Shown here: positions 3,105 to 9,511 of the stretch, in pieces
How positions within the stretch are numbered: the first letter of the stretch is position 1
Layout of the letters: every line of letters begins with the position of its first letter
Assembly (NCBI GenBank): GCA_963169165.1
Contig: CAUJFL010000394.1
Span: 1 to 35,831, forward strand
DNA: 35,831 nt
Origin: Myxococcota bacterium
Lineage (GTDB): Bacteria > Myxococcota_A > Polyangia > Polyangiales > Polyangiaceae
Direction: 5' to 3'
Notes under the pieces: model-generated
Told to the model about the DNA's origin: nothing
Database searches by the model: none
Seen by the model: only the letters and a program-made list of their open reading frames with translations
Position numbers and translations under genes: made by a program

Positions 3105-3959
3105 ATGAGCGAGACCGAGCAAAAGCTCGCGCGTCTGCGCGACGAGCTGAGGGCGCTGGAGTCGGTGCTCGTGTGCTTCTCGGGCGGCATCGACAGCGCC
3201 CTGTTGCTCAAGGTGGCGCACGACGTGCTCGGCGCTCGCGCGCTCGGGATGACGGCTGTCAGCCCGAGCCTGCCGCCGGGCGAGCGCGAGGCGGCGGCCG
3301 AGGTGGCCCGCGCCGCGGGCGCCGCGCACGTGTTCGTCGACACGCACGAGATCGACAAGCTCGGCTACCAGCAGAACCACGCCGATCGCTGCTTCCACTG
3401 CAAGACCGAGCTCTACGACGTCGCGGCGGTCGAGCGCGAGCGCCGCGGCATCCGCCACGTCGCGGCCGGCATCATCACCGAGGATCTGGGCGATCATAGG
3501 CCTGGGCTCGACGCCGCGCGCGCGCACGGCGTCAGGTTTCCGCTGGTCGACGCCGGGTTCACCAAGGCCGACGTCCGCGCGGCGTCCGAGGCGCTGGGCC
3601 TGTCGATCTGGAACAAGCCGGCGTCCGCCTGCCTGTCGAGCCGCATCCCGTACGGCACCTCGGTGACGCGGGAGCGCCTGGGCAAGATTGGCGGGTTCGA
3701 GGCCGCGCTGAAGGCGCTGGGGCTGCGGCAGCTGCGCGTCCGCTATCACGAGACGGGGGTGGGCGAGCACACCTCGACGCTCGCACGGCTCGAGCTCGCG
3801 CTCGAGGAGCTGCCCCGCGCGCTCGAGCCCGGCGTGCGCGAGGCGATCGTGGCGGCGGGGCGTGAGCACGGCTTCCGACACGTCACGCTCGATCTCGCGG
3901 GCTACCGGATGGGCAGCGCGAACGAGCTGCTCGGCGGGCGCTCGCTGCGCGTCCTGTTA
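3105..3959 (+). CDS. larE: LarE-type ATP-dependent sacrificial sulfur transferase
   Basis: LarE adenylates and then thiolates the pyridinium dicarboxylate precursor of the nickel-pincer nucleotide cofactor used by LarA-type racemases. Seen here: the PP-loop FSGGIDS (residues 25-31), the substrate region RCFHCKTELYD with Cys96 and Cys99, and the conserved NKPASACLSSRIPYG segment with Cys176, then LDLAGYRMGSANELL at the end. Three cysteines in these positions indicate, as I recall the family, the iron-sulfur-cluster variant rather than the single-Cys sacrificial one. The family end is reached at residue 284, where the next codon is TTA (3957-3959), not a stop. The literal frame runs on to 4499 through a tandem repeat and antisense to the next gene. 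I give the end at the TTA. No larA, larB or larC is in the window. Confidence 0.85.
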
Positions 3960-3991: not shown

Positions 3992-4142
3992 TCCGTCTCC
4001 GTCTCCGTCTCCGTCGCCCGTTCTCCGTCTCCCGTTCTCTGTCGCCCGTCGCCCGTCGTCCGTGCTCCGTCGCCCGTTCTCCGTCGCCCGTTCTCCGTCG
4101 CCCGTTCTCCGTCGCCCGTTCTCCGTCGCCCGTCTCTCGTCC
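3992..4142. repeat. Tandem repeat, 14-bp units (CCGTCGCCCGTTCT)
   Basis: About 150 bp of degenerate tandem repeat. The left part is 6-bp CCGTCT steps; the right part has four perfect head-to-tail copies of the 14-mer from 4067 to 4122, with an imperfect copy after. It fills most of the gap between larE (inferred end 3959) and the convergent Mo-enzyme flavin subunit (end 4184). Its strand asymmetry (C/T on +, G/A on -) is strong. It is not a CRISPR array, since there are no spacers. I believe similar repeats produce spurious Arg/Gly/Glu-rich ORFs in myxobacterial genomes, but I cannot check that here. Confidence 0.85.
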
Positions 4143-4183
4143 GCCAAGCAAGAAAAGCCAGACCCTGGCTCGCGCCCGTCGCC

Positions 4184-5170
4184 TCACCCTCCGGCGAACA
4201 ACCGACCGAGCGCCCGCGTGACGAGGACCGGGACCATCTCCCTCCGCCACGCGACGTCCCCGTCCACGTTGGCGAGCGGCGCGCACTCCGCGAGCGCAGC
4301 CTCCGCGATCGAGTCGATGGGCAGGTCGGCCGCCGCGGCGCCGACGCCGAGCGCCGCGCCACGCACGCGCCGGGGCCTCGCCGCGAGCGCGGACACGACG
4401 ACGTCGAGGTCGCGGATCACGCCGCCCGTGACGTCGGCCCTCGCCGCGACGGAGAGCAGCGGAAAGTCGATCGCGCCCCGCAGCCTCAGCTTCTCGTAGG
4501 CGCTCGCGCGTCCCTCGACGACCGGCACGTCGACGTGCGTGACGAGCTCGCCCGGCCGGAGCGCGACGTTGCGGACGCCGTCGGCCGTGTAGAAGTCGCG
4601 CGCCGACAGCTCGCGCGGCCCTGCCGGTCCCAGGAGCCCGAGCGTCGCTCCGAGCGCGATCACCGCCGCGGCGCAGTCGTTGGACGCCGCCGCGACGCAC
4701 CGCCGCCCGCCGCGCACGACGTGGCACTCGGAGCCGTCCTTCTTGAGGCAGAAGCCGAGCGCCGAGCGCCAGAAATGGCTCTGGTTGTAGTAGCGGCAGC
4801 GGGTGTCGAGGCAGAGGTTCCCGCCGAGCGTGCCCATGCGCCGGTGGTGCGGGCCGCCCACCGCGCGCGCGGCCTCGACGAGCGCGCGCGCCGCCGACGA
4901 GAGCGACGGGTCGCGCGTGACGGCGTCGAGCGTGGTCATCGCGCCCACGCGGATGACGCCCGCTTCGCGCTTCACTTGCACGCCGCGCAGCGACGCGACG
5001 CGCGCGACAGACACGAGCCTGCGCGGCGCGAGCAGGCCCTGCTTCATGTTCGGCAGCAGATCGGTGCCGCCAGCGATGACCGCCGCGTCGTCGCCGTGCT
5101 GCTCGAGCAGGGCCACGACCTCGGCGAGCGTCGACGGCGCGAGTCGCTCGAACGGGGGCAGCGGCAGCAC
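4184..5170 (-). CDS. Mo-hydroxylase FAD/[4Fe-4S] subunit, HcrB-like
   Basis: A 328-residue medium subunit of the xanthine oxidase family. FAD-binding motifs are AGGTDLLPNMKQG (residues 33-45) and GTLGGNLCLDTRC (113-125). Between the two FAD motifs and the C-terminal CO_deh_flav domain lies an insertion with Cys125, Cys141, Cys149 and Cys158. Their spacings of 16, 8 and 9 are those I recall for the four cysteines that bind the extra [4Fe-4S] cluster in the beta subunit of 4-hydroxybenzoyl-CoA reductase. The flanking CRYYNQSHFWRSALGFCLKK also resembles that enzyme. The GTG start at 5170 lies 2 bp after the stop of the large subunit. It should pass electrons between the [2Fe-2S] domains and an external donor or acceptor. 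Physiological substrate unknown. Confidence 0.9.
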   Translation of the reverse strand: MLPLPPFERLAPSTLAEVVALLEQHGDDAAVIAGGTDLLPNMKQGLLAPRRLVSVARVASLRGVQVKREAGVIRVGAMTTLDAVTRDPSLSSAARALVEAARAVGGPHHRRMGTLGGNLCLDTRCRYYNQSHFWRSALGFCLKKDGSECHVVRGGRRCVAAASNDCAAAVIALGATLGLLGPAGPRELSARDFYTADGVRNVALRPGELVTHVDVPVVEGRASAYEKLRLRGAIDFPLLSVAARADVTGGVIRDLDVVVSALAARPRRVRGAALGVGAAAADLPIDSIAEAALAECAPLANVDGDVAWRREMVPVLVTRALGRLFAGG

Positions 5171-5172
5171 GG

Positions 5173-7446
5173 CTACGCGCGCCTCCGCAGGGCCTCGCGC
5201 ACCCGCGAAGGAGAGAACGGCAGCGCGTCGAGCCGCACGCCCACCGCGTCGTGGATGGCGTTGGCGACGGCGGGGATGCTCGAATGGAGCGGGCCCTCGC
5301 CGGCCTCCTTGGCGCCGAGCGGGCCCTCGGGATCGTGAGACTCGACGATGAAGGGCTCGATGTCCGGCACGTCGAGGCTCGTCGGGATGCGGTAGTCGAG
5401 CAGGTTGGGCCCGAGGTGCAGGCCGCGCTCGTCGACCTGGTGTCCCTCGAACAGCGCCTCGGCGACGCCCATGTACACGCTCCCCTCGATCTGGTTCTCG
5501 ACCAGCGTCGGACAGAGCGCGCGCCCGCAGTCGTGCGCGCACCACACCTTCACCACCGTCACGACGCCCGTGGCCTCGTCGACCGCGACCTCGGCGACGT
5601 GCGCGGTGAACGAGTAGGCCGGCGACGCGCCGATCGTGCCGCCGCGGTACGCGCCGCCCAGCCCAGGCGGCGTTTTGTACCAGCCGGTCGCGCCGAGCGT
5701 GCCGTGCCGCGCCTCGGCCATTCGGATCACCTCGTCGGTCGGCAGCGACCGTGACGGATCGTCGCTCGAGCACACGAGCCCCCGAGCGAACACGAGGCGC
5801 CCGGGCGCGCACCCGAGCGCCTCGCTCGCGACCTCGGCGAGCCGCTCGCGGACGGCTCGCGCCGCCATCAGGCACGCGTTGCCGTTCATCAGCGTGCCGC
5901 GGGACGAGTACGCGCCGAGATCGACCGGACAGAGATCGGTGTCGGCCGAGACGACGCGGACGCAGCCGAGCTCGAGCCCCAGCTCGTCCGCGACCAGCGT
6001 CGCGAGCAGGGTGTCGGTGCCCTGACCTATCTCGCTCGCGCCGTTGAAGATCGTGACCACCCCCGAGCGATCTACCTTCAGCTGCACCGCGCTCTGCGGC
6101 AGCTCGTTGGGGTAGATCGGATAGTTGGTGCCCGAGATGTACGCCGACGACGCGACGCCGAGCCCGCGCCCGCGGCCCAGCTTGCCGCGACGGGCGCGCC
6201 AGCCCGACGCCTCCTCGACCTTCGCGAGGCACTCGAGGTAACCGCACGAGGTGATCCTCATGCCGTTCACCGAGGTGGAGTGGGGCGAGACGGCGTTGCG
6301 ACGGCGCAGCTCGATCGGATCGAGCCGCAGCCGCTCGGCGAGCTTGTCGAGCGCGACCTCGAGCGCGAAGCGGGGCTGGACGCTCCCGTGGCCGCGCTTC
6401 GGACCGCAAGGCGGCTTGTTGGTGAAGTAGCGCGTCGACGAGAACCGATAGGTCTCCGCCGCCGTCGGCATCGCGAGCAGCTGGCCCGAGTAGTAGGTGG
6501 TGACGAGCCCGAACGACGAGTACGCGCCGCCGTCGATGTCGGTGCGCACGTCGATCGCGGTGAGCCCGCCATCGCGTCGCGCGCCGAGGGTCAGGCTCAT
6601 TCGCATCGGGTGCCGACCGCGGTGGACGTAGAACTCCTCCTCCCGCGACAGCAGGATCTTGACCGCGCGGCCCGTGACCAGCGCGAGCTTGGCCACCACG
6701 AGCTCGTGGCCGAAGGGCTCGCTCTTGCCGCCGAACGCGCCGCCCACGGGCGGCTGGATGACGCGGATGCGCGCGGGTGACAGCTCGAGCACGCGCGACA
6801 GCTCGCGGTGGAGATAGTGGGGCACCTGCGTGGAAGACCACACGGTGAGCAGGCCGCCGCCGTCGAGCTGCGCCGCCGCGACGTGGGTCTCGATCGGCGC
6901 GTGCGCGCTGCCCTCGAAGAAATAGTCGCCGCGCTCGACGACGTCCGCTCGCGCGAGCGCGCCGTCCACGTCGCCGAACGCGAGGTCGACCGCCTTGCTC
7001 ACGTTGTCTCGCCCCTTCGCGCCCAGGCCCACGTCGGGTCGCGCGATGGCGGCGTCGAGCGTCGTGACCGCCGGCAGGGGCTCGTACTCGACGTCGACGA
7101 GGCGCGCCGCCTCCCACGCGGTGCGCTCGTCCGTCGCGGCCACCGCGGCCACCGCGTCGCCGACGAAGCGCGCGACGTCGTGCGCGAGCGCGAGCTCGTC
7201 GGGCGTCCACGGCAGGATCCCGAACGCGCCCGGCAGCGCGCCGCCATCGAGCACCGCCACGACGCCCGGCAGCGCGAGGGCGCGCGACGGATCGACCGCG
7301 CGGACCCTCGCGTGAGCGTGCGGCGAGCGCACGAGCTTCGCGTGCAGGGCGCGCGGCAGGACCAGATCGTCGCAGAAGCGCACGTCGCCGCGCGCGCGCG
7401 ACACCAGATCTCCGCGCCGTCCCCGGCGTCCGATGAGGCCGCTCAC
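5173..7446 (-). CDS. Molybdopterin-binding large subunit, HcrA/CoxL-like
   Basis: A 757-residue catalytic subunit of the xanthine oxidase family, close in length to 4-hydroxybenzoyl-CoA reductase alpha. Seen in order: the N-terminal a/b hammerhead domain (DLVLPRALHAKLVRSPHAHA), the first Mo-pterin domain with QPPVGGAFGGKSEP, NGASEIGQGTDTL, and the C-terminal active-site segment GPLGAKEAGEGP in which Glu714 is the base conserved across the family. The molybdenum would carry MPT-cytosine dinucleotide, in keeping with the MocA-like gene next door. The start is GTG at 7446, overlapping the stop of the fused small-subunit gene as GTGA. With the subunits on either side it should form an (alpha-beta-gamma)2 enzyme that hydroxylates or reductively dehydroxylates an aromatic or CoA-bound substrate; which one cannot be told from sequence. 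Confidence 0.92.
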   Translation of the reverse strand: MSGLIGRRGRRGDLVSRARGDVRFCDDLVLPRALHAKLVRSPHAHARVRAVDPSRALALPGVVAVLDGGALPGAFGILPWTPDELALAHDVARFVGDAVAAVAATDERTAWEAARLVDVEYEPLPAVTTLDAAIARPDVGLGAKGRDNVSKAVDLAFGDVDGALARADVVERGDYFFEGSAHAPIETHVAAAQLDGGGLLTVWSSTQVPHYLHRELSRVLELSPARIRVIQPPVGGAFGGKSEPFGHELVVAKLALVTGRAVKILLSREEEFYVHRGRHPMRMSLTLGARRDGGLTAIDVRTDIDGGAYSSFGLVTTYYSGQLLAMPTAAETYRFSSTRYFTNKPPCGPKRGHGSVQPRFALEVALDKLAERLRLDPIELRRRNAVSPHSTSVNGMRITSCGYLECLAKVEEASGWRARRGKLGRGRGLGVASSAYISGTNYPIYPNELPQSAVQLKVDRSGVVTIFNGASEIGQGTDTLLATLVADELGLELGCVRVVSADTDLCPVDLGAYSSRGTLMNGNACLMAARAVRERLAEVASEALGCAPGRLVFARGLVCSSDDPSRSLPTDEVIRMAEARHGTLGATGWYKTPPGLGGAYRGGTIGASPAYSFTAHVAEVAVDEATGVVTVVKVWCAHDCGRALCPTLVENQIEGSVYMGVAEALFEGHQVDERGLHLGPNLLDYRIPTSLDVPDIEPFIVESHDPEGPLGAKEAGEGPLHSSIPAVANAIHDAVGVRLDALPFSPSRVREALRRRA

Positions 7447-8876
7447 GCGCCCCTCCGTCCGTACGGCCGGTGCGGCGCGGGCTCGTTCGGGCGCTCGGGC
7501 GCCGCGGGATCGTCACCGCTCGCGAGCCGCGCCGCGAGCTCGACGGCGTCGACGATCGCGCCGTACCCCGTGCACCTGCAGAGGTTGCCGCAGATCGCCT
7601 CGCGGATGGCCTGGCGCGACGGCGCTCGGTCGCGCGCGAGCAGCGCCTTGCTCGCCATCAGCATGCCCGGCGTGCAGAAGCCGCACTGACCCGCGCCGCG
7701 ACGATCGAACGCGTCGAGCAGCGGATCGAGCCTCGGGGCCCCGTTGAGCGACTCGACCGTCGTCACGTGCGCGCCCTCGCAGCCGAGCGCGAGCGTGAGG
7801 CACGCGAGCACGGGCTCGCCGTCGACGAGGACCGTACACGCCCCGCAGTCGCCCTTGTCGCATCCCTGCTTGGTGCCGATGAGTCCGAGATCGTAGCGGA
7901 GCAGCTCGAGCAGAGTCCGGCTCGGGCGCGTGGCGACGTCGACCGGCGCTCCGTTCACGTGGAGCGTGAGGCGATCGAGCGGCTCGTCGAAGCGCGTCGG
8001 ACCGAGCAGCGCCGCCCTCGCGAGCGCCGAGTAGGCGTCGATCGCGCGCGAGGGAGGACAGGCTCGATCGAACTCCGAGGACAGCGCGACCACCAGGTGT
8101 TCCATGGCCGTGTTGCCACACCGCTCTCCCACGCCGCCCGCCGTCCCGTGGACGCCGTCGACGCCGGCGCGCGCGGCCGCGAGGGCGTTGGCCAGCGAGA
8201 GCCCGCGATCGTCGTGGCCGTGCCAGTCGAGCTCGGTCGCGGGCGCGCCCAGCTCGGTCAGCGCCTGCCGCGCGAACCTCACCAGCGCCTCGACGCCGTG
8301 CGGATCGGCGTGGCCCACCGTGTCGCAGAGACAGACGCGGCGCGCGCCCACGTCGACCGCGGCCTGGAACATCGCGCGCAGCGTGTCGGGGGGCGTGCGC
8401 GTCGTGTCCTCGAGCACGAGGCAGAACGGCACGCCCGCTCGCCGCGCGACCTCACCGCTCGCGAGCACGCGCCCACGCAGCAGCTCGAGCGTCCACCCCT
8501 CGACGTAGCGGCGGATCGGCGAGCTGCCGATGAACGCGTAGACCTCGACCGGCCGCCCCGCGCGCTGGCTGACCTCGACCACGGCGAGCACGTCTCCCTC
8601 GGTCGTCCGCGCCGCGGCGGTGCAGGTGAACGGCAGGCGGGCGGCCTCCACCTCGCGACCGAGCGCCACCGCGTCGCGCAGCGCCCGCGGGCCGGCCGCG
8701 GGGAGGCCGAGCGACACACAATCGACGCCGATGCGCGCCATCTGATGCAGCAGCGCCACCTTCCGGTCGATGGGCGGCTCGACCACGGACGCGCTCTGCA
8801 AGCCATCCCTCAGCGTCTCATCCACCACCCGAGGGCGCCCGCGTGTCGTGGGCTGGCCCTGGTTCCAGTCATGCAT
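7443..8876 (-). CDS. Fusion: 2-isopropylmalate-synthase-like domain + Mo-hydroxylase [2Fe-2S] subunit
   Basis: One uninterrupted 477-residue frame holds two complete domains. Residues about 15-290 are a DRE-TIM metallolyase/Claisen synthase of the 2-isopropylmalate synthase type: DETLRDGLQS (metal ligand Asp19, catalytic Arg23), the HGH metal pair His219/His221, and TAGGVGERCGNT (245-256). The C-terminal regulatory domain of LeuA is missing. In its place, residues about 302-455 form the small subunit of a xanthine-oxidase-type enzyme. It has the plant-type [2Fe-2S] site Cys339/344/347/359 and the second site Cys398/401/433/435 (CGFCTPG, NLCRCTGYG). No other small subunit is present, so this one must serve the large and flavin subunits downstream, to which it is coupled by GTGA. 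Composition is even across the junction. The synthase substrate is unknown. An oxoacid plus acetyl-CoA is the family default. Confidence 0.9.
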   Translation of the reverse strand: MHDWNQGQPTTRGRPRVVDETLRDGLQSASVVEPPIDRKVALLHQMARIGVDCVSLGLPAAGPRALRDAVALGREVEAARLPFTCTAAARTTEGDVLAVVEVSQRAGRPVEVYAFIGSSPIRRYVEGWTLELLRGRVLASGEVARRAGVPFCLVLEDTTRTPPDTLRAMFQAAVDVGARRVCLCDTVGHADPHGVEALVRFARQALTELGAPATELDWHGHDDRGLSLANALAAARAGVDGVHGTAGGVGERCGNTAMEHLVVALSSEFDRACPPSRAIDAYSALARAALLGPTRFDEPLDRLTLHVNGAPVDVATRPSRTLLELLRYDLGLIGTKQGCDKGDCGACTVLVDGEPVLACLTLALGCEGAHVTTVESLNGAPRLDPLLDAFDRRGAGQCGFCTPGMLMASKALLARDRAPSRQAIREAICGNLCRCTGYGAIVDAVELAARLASGDDPAAPERPNEPAPHRPYGRRGA

Positions 8877-8926: not shown

Positions 8927-9511
8927 ATGATCACTGTCATCCTCGCCGCTGGAAATGGCCGCCGGCTCGGCGGTGCAAAAGCGGCGTTGTTGCTCGGTGA
9001 CTCCCCAATCGTCGCGCATCATTTGCGCCTCGCCGAGGCGTTGTGTTGTGTGAGGACGATCGCGGTGGGCCGCCCGGAAGACTGTCGCTGGCTCGGCGCG
9101 CTCGGGCTCGAGGCCGTACCGTCGGCGGCGCCCGACCAGGCGGGCTCTCTCGCCGTAGCGGTGCGCGCGCTCGGTCCTGTCGACGCGGACGAGGTGGTGC
9201 TGGTCACGCCGGTCGACGCCGTCCCGGTCCAGACCTCGACGGTAGAGGCGCTGCTGGGCGCGCTCGGGCCCGACCTCGACGCGGTGACGCCGACGCACCT
9301 CGGCCGCGGCGGACACCCGGCGCTCGTGCGCGTGCGCGCGCTCGTGCCCTACCGCGCGGCGCTCCCCCCTCCGCTCCGTGAGGTGCTCCGCGCGCTCGGT
9401 CCGCGCCGCGCGCGGGTCGCGGTCGATGATCCGGCGGTGACGACCGATCTCGACACGCCGGACGAGGTCGCGCGGCTCACCGGAGGGCCGCCGCGCTTCT
9501 GGTCACCGTGA
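8927..9511 (+). CDS. MocA-like molybdenum cofactor nucleotidyltransferase
   Basis: A 194-residue NTP-transferase-fold protein of the MobA/MocA group. The N-terminal signature is LAAGNGRRLGGAKAALLLG (residues 7-24) and the metal-binding Asp is in VTPVDAVP (Asp97). MocA adds CMP to molybdopterin to give the dinucleotide form used by CO dehydrogenase- and 4-hydroxybenzoyl-CoA-reductase-type enzymes. It diverges from the Mo-enzyme operon across 50 bp, which supports a cofactor-supply role for that enzyme. The ATG at 8927 is chosen because it starts on the beta strand of the signature and has GGAG at 8916-8919 upstream; an in-frame ATG 84 bases earlier would overlap the other operon's start. CobY- or MobA-like use of GTP cannot be excluded. 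Confidence 0.82.
   Translation: MITVILAAGNGRRLGGAKAALLLGDSPIVAHHLRLAEALCCVRTIAVGRPEDCRWLGALGLEAVPSAAPDQAGSLAVAVRALGPVDADEVVLVTPVDAVPVQTSTVEALLGALGPDLDAVTPTHLGRGGHPALVRVRALVPYRAALPPPLREVLRALGPRRARVAVDDPAVTTDLDTPDEVARLTGGPPRFWSP

Follow-up and report, generated by a model that had tools for sequence, protein, structure and literature searches.

We found that three genes in the window, the 35,831-nucleotide stretch of DNA analysed here from a myxococcal host that belongs to the Polyangiaceae, probably encode an Hcr-type hydroxybenzoyl-CoA reductase that would feed benzoyl-CoA to the benzoyl-CoA reductase (Bcr) and Box pathways encoded elsewhere in the genome, a reading to which we give a probability of roughly 0.6. 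We infer the reaction, the substrate and the direction of electron flow as follows: a hydroxybenzoyl-CoA, with the 4-hydroxy compound as the most likely candidate, would lose its aromatic hydroxyl group reductively and so become benzoyl-CoA. In Thauera Hcr, electrons pass from a [4Fe-4S] cluster through FAD and two [2Fe-2S] clusters to the molybdenum site. If the window enzyme works like Thauera HcrABC, a low-potential donor would hand electrons to the FAD subunit at its [4Fe-4S] cluster, from where they would cross FAD and two [2Fe-2S] clusters on their way to molybdenum. The Bcr enzymes belong to the class-I benzoyl-CoA reductase pathway, which operates under anoxic conditions, and the Box enzymes to the oxic benzoyl-CoA pathway; the benzoyl-CoA formed could enter the first when oxygen is absent or the second when it is present.

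The three genes (P0004, P0003 and P0002) are tightly packed on the minus strand and are read from 8876 to 4184. The first (7443-8876, 477 aa) encodes a hybrid protein in which an isopropylmalate synthase/HMGL-like TIM barrel is joined to a [2Fe-2S] subunit, and it overlaps by 4 bp with the gene for the HcrA-like molybdenum subunit (5173-7446, 757 aa). The third encodes the HcrB-like FAD subunit and runs from a GTG start at 5170 through 328 codons to a stop at 4184. The original prediction had located a flavin subunit with an HcrB-type [4Fe-4S] insertion correctly at 4184-5170 and had given no strand, which is minus. Directly past the stop of the FAD-subunit gene lies a terminator-like hairpin (4155-4171, minus strand; pattern match only), which fits an operon of three genes ending here. 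Upstream, 50 bp from the hybrid gene, a divergent gene on the plus strand (8927-9511) encodes a MocA/MobA-like nucleotidyltransferase, a family that also flanks Hcr at several other loci. On the other side, a plus-strand gene at 3123-3923 converges on the Hcr operon and encodes LarE, an ATP-dependent sacrificial sulfur transferase (TIGR00268, 277 bits against a cut-off of 150), with an open reading frame that continues into low-complexity sequence. A 14-bp tandem repeat of about ten copies (3996-4138) occupies the space between LarE and the FAD-subunit gene. A search of a plasmid collection returned no match.

The FAD subunit has cysteines at positions 120, 125, 141, 149, 158, 166 and 296, and four of these, Cys125, Cys141, Cys149 and Cys158 (codons within 4697-4798, minus strand), had been proposed as cluster ligands from their HcrB-type 16-8-9 spacing. 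This proposal held up: they pair without gaps to Cys122, Cys138, Cys146 and Cys155 of Thauera HcrB (1rm6_B; phmmer, E 4e-54, the best PDB match), residues that we take to be the published [4Fe-4S] ligands, and the spacing is conserved. A 24-sequence alignment covering several phyla shows no variation at any of the four positions, and the exact 16-8-9 spacing is kept in 106 of 113 homologues, so that chance cysteines are ruled out. The exceptions are small indels within the loop (L078, L114, L141, L150 and L152), while the cluster is wholly absent only from second copies in two Planctomycetota loci (L067 and L082). FAD subunits at L141:6742-7767, L150:1984-2991 and L152:8571-9578 are longer between the second and the third ligand cysteine, and the loop therefore tolerates changes in length. 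The predicted structure of the subunit is closest to 1rm6_B (TM 0.86). Its loop at 125-161 was modelled with low confidence (pLDDT below 50 at 125-130 and 137-161), which makes the AlphaFold model unusable as proof of the cluster site; the superposition of the cysteines thus rests on sequence. The [4Fe-4S] site is presumably occupied.

The family placement is Hcr-like and non-canonical. Among NCBIfam models, those for Hcr rank first for the FAD subunit, the molybdenum subunit and the [2Fe-2S] half of the hybrid, and all three score under the equivalog cut-offs (TIGR03195, 275.7 against 404.55 bits; TIGR03194, 775.8 against 994.55; TIGR03193, 168.7 against 257.8). Nor does any of 144 genomes of the order contain an HcrB above its cut-off. 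The best PDB matches are 1rm6_B for the FAD subunit and 1rm6_A for the molybdenum subunit (E 1.2e-170); for the [2Fe-2S] half 1rm6_C is second best. The tree of FAD subunits pairs the window protein with that of locus L056 as sisters (support 99/92), inside a large group that includes sequences from Myxococcota, Planctomycetota and Gemmatimonadota, among others. A separate clade holds Thauera HcrB together with four HcrB proteins above the cut-off. The original prediction would have been overturned by a position among CoxM proteins without the cluster, and the tree instead places the subunit in the cluster-bearing clade; with its [4Fe-4S] loop and its place apart in the tree, it differs from CoxM and plain xanthine dehydrogenase subunits, and the alignment and tree together rule out a CoxM-like subunit without a cluster.

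The enzyme shares with Thauera aromatica HcrABC (PDB 1rm6 and 1sb3) the three-subunit plan, the 16-8-9 loop, the catalytic glutamate (the Glu726 equivalent) and RGH motif of the molybdenum subunit, which also keeps the Gln of the TQ motif, and the linkage to, or co-occurrence with, class-I benzoyl-CoA reductase. It differs in its FAD subunit (34-36% identity, separate clade), its pocket motifs, its scores under the equivalog cut-offs and the TIM barrel at the N-terminus of its [2Fe-2S] subunit. The cluster insertion and an Hcr-like enzyme of three subunits are both supported; because cut-offs, clade and pocket all differ from canonical HcrABC, we regard the enzyme as Hcr-like and cluster-bearing yet of a distinct subfamily. 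These departures count against the preferred reading, as do a genome with both kinds of HcrB and the Hcr genomes without BcrB described below. Reductive dehydroxylation is known from two members of the xanthine oxidase family, Hcr and Ucdh, the urolithin C dehydroxylase of Enterocloster bolteae (PMC12771579). By its description, Ucdh resembles the window enzyme in family and in catalysing reductive dehydroxylation, but its substrate is a free polyphenol and not a CoA thioester (PMC12771579).

The enzyme had been described as lying outside a recognisable aromatic pathway, with the alternative that the pathway is elsewhere. The first statement is true of the window and does not extend to the genome, where a search for benzoyl-CoA genes recovered both bcr and box genes and so bore out the second. 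One contig (C48) carries had, oah, dch, bcrC, bcrB, bcrA and bcrD in one run and another (C156) carries boxC, boxB and boxD, which rules out an organism without an aromatic pathway. Of these ten genes, five score over NCBIfam cut-offs and four fall under them by 1 to 10 per cent; dch was assigned by similarity to locus L097. A benzoate-CoA-ligase-like stretch on a third contig (C310) is barely over its cut-off (377 against 375.25 bits). The tetranucleotide composition of the bcr and box contigs correlates with that of the window at r 0.995 and 0.993, respectively, and their membership of the genome depends on binning, since the assembly consists of 479 contigs and is 85% complete.

Related loci place an Hcr of this type beside bcr genes. 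In the sister locus L056, Hcr adjoins bcrB-A-D, a CoA ligase and a thiolase, and bcr operons also neighbour more distant relatives within the group, in L097/L137, L089, L135, L136 and L147. In L135 and L147, Hcr and bcr-dch-oah genes form one same-strand run, a compact pathway island. Among 144 genomes of the order, with a strong Hcr match defined as more than 240 bits (a threshold chosen after the scores were seen), 32 had Hcr, 22 had BcrB over its cut-off and 19 had both, against 4.9 expected; BoxB accompanied Hcr in 32 of 32. Hcr was thus present in 19 of 22 BcrB genomes (P 1.6e-12) and, counted by genus, in 14 of 16 Bcr genera (P 5.6e-8); neither P value accounts for shared ancestry above genus level. 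The genome pathways and this linkage in relatives speak against an enzyme that stands apart from aromatic metabolism.

The same linkage can accommodate an enzyme of the same kind acting on another ring substrate, an aryl-CoA dehydroxylase for 2-hydroxybenzoyl-CoA or 3,4-dihydroxybenzoyl-CoA, for example, with a pocket altered accordingly. The molybdenum pocket of the window enzyme is NKPPCGPKRGHG and not NTPPCGAMRGHG as in canonical HcrA, with PKRGHG in place of AMRGHG, FGGKSEPF in place of FGARTEAL and a loop Met replaced by Lys, and throughout the non-canonical group the loops depart systematically from canonical HcrA. In one genome (G146) a canonical HcrB is accompanied by a second, non-canonical one, which suggests that the two kinds have different roles, at least there. 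Since Hcr is still linked to bcr genes, a benzoyl-CoA-type product would also fit. Against this, no direct evidence favours any alternative substrate. Moreover, the non-canonical Hcr is the only Hcr found in the bcr-bearing members of the order, so its task may just be the reduction of 4-hydroxybenzoyl-CoA. A different substrate is therefore possible but rather improbable. The papers searched included none on the dehydroxylation of 2-hydroxybenzoyl-CoA.

In aerobes the enzyme could instead run in the oxidative direction, like most of the xanthine oxidase family, and hydroxylate an aromatic acyl-CoA of Box-type metabolism. BoxB is present in all 32 Hcr genomes and BcrB in 19; seven of the 13 without BcrB are Polyangium-type, six of these seven from one genus (g18). 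A related Hcr-like clade adjoins boxB/boxC in L101, L126 and L169 (Acidobacteriota and Betaproteobacteria). However, genomes without Bcr also retain the cluster cysteines, a feature linked to reduction, and the window genome itself has Bcr, so we consider oxidative catalysis unlikely. Least probable is an aldehyde or heterocycle dehydrogenase of the usual kind in this family, whose cluster would be a neutral leftover: the molybdenum subunit does score with xanthine dehydrogenase and aldehyde oxidoreductase models, but the Hcr model is far ahead (775.8 against 502.6 bits), the cluster ligands are invariant across phyla and related Hcr loci are linked to bcr.

The unexpected feature is the fusion of the [2Fe-2S] subunit to a TIM barrel, which the original prediction missed. 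The barrel is an HMGL-like (PF00682) domain of residues 15-266 (8079-8834, minus strand) and the HcrC-like [2Fe-2S] domain spans residues 303-449 (7530-7970, minus strand; Foldseek 1sb3_C/1rm6_C, 51% identity). A frameshift or assembly artefact is ruled out, because the hybrid matches full-length in genome G102 (64% over 1-474) and the same in-frame fusion occurs in many other assemblies; within Polyangiaceae it is conserved and occurs in many members. The barrel has the isopropylmalate/homocitrate synthase motifs DxTLRDG, EDxxR, HxHxD and GERxGNT, here as DETLRDG, EDTTR, WHGHDD and GERCGNT, and its fold is nearest to methylthioalkylmalate, isopropylmalate and homocitrate synthases. These DRE-TIM metallolyases (3ewb, 3rmj, 6e1j and 6ktq) share its motifs but only about 26% identity, and in contrast to them the window barrel is fused to a molybdenum-enzyme subunit and lacks the C-terminal lid subdomain (DAF...GxH). 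The lid is missing from the fused group and from most, not all, other Hcr-adjacent copies; most other paralogues keep it. Canonical LeuA (126.5 bits against a cut-off of 532) and NifV (124.6 against 462.9) were rejected, as was HMG-CoA lyase, to which matches were much weaker than to the synthases.

An unfused homologous barrel gene adjoins Hcr in other Myxococcota loci and in one Acidobacteriota locus. It lies on the Hcr strand in L059, L089, L093, L104, L136, L141 and L150 and is divergent in L039, L040/L129, L139, L140, L142 and L145 (those of L139 and L140 were located by tblastn); in L135 it is 13 kb off, past the bcr genes. Hcr-adjacent copies occupy several positions in the barrel tree; the fused ones group together, along with a few unfused copies. 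The label 'far' in the barrel set was also given to loci too short to include the FAD gene, and group counts by label were left unused.

The motifs with which acetyl-CoA-condensing synthases bind metal and catalyse their reaction are kept in the fused barrel, and we think that it may be a working C-C-bond enzyme of the same metabolism, held beside the reductase. Going further, we offer as a tentative idea that the hybrid physically joins a synthase-type barrel without a lid to a molybdenum dehydroxylase so that a CoA-bound or keto-acid intermediate is handed over, that this partner was acquired or kept more than once in Hcr loci of the phylum, shortened in several lineages and fused in Polyangiaceae, and that in the Bcr-less Polyangium-type genomes the machine would feed benzoyl-CoA to the oxygen-dependent Box pathway.

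In Myxococcota genomes, then, an Hcr-like dehydroxylase occurs alongside Box genes and a class-I benzoyl-CoA reductase; among the papers searched in full text, none names Hcr, Bcr and Myxococcota together. The enzyme type of the fusion partner has been assigned no part in the metabolism of benzoyl-CoA, which raises the concrete question of why a leucine-synthase-type barrel travels with hydroxybenzoyl-CoA reductase. Elsewhere, in genome G126, barrel paralogues (L042 and L046) adjoin very large multidomain genes of 2661 and 1964 aa, perhaps belonging to biosynthetic clusters.
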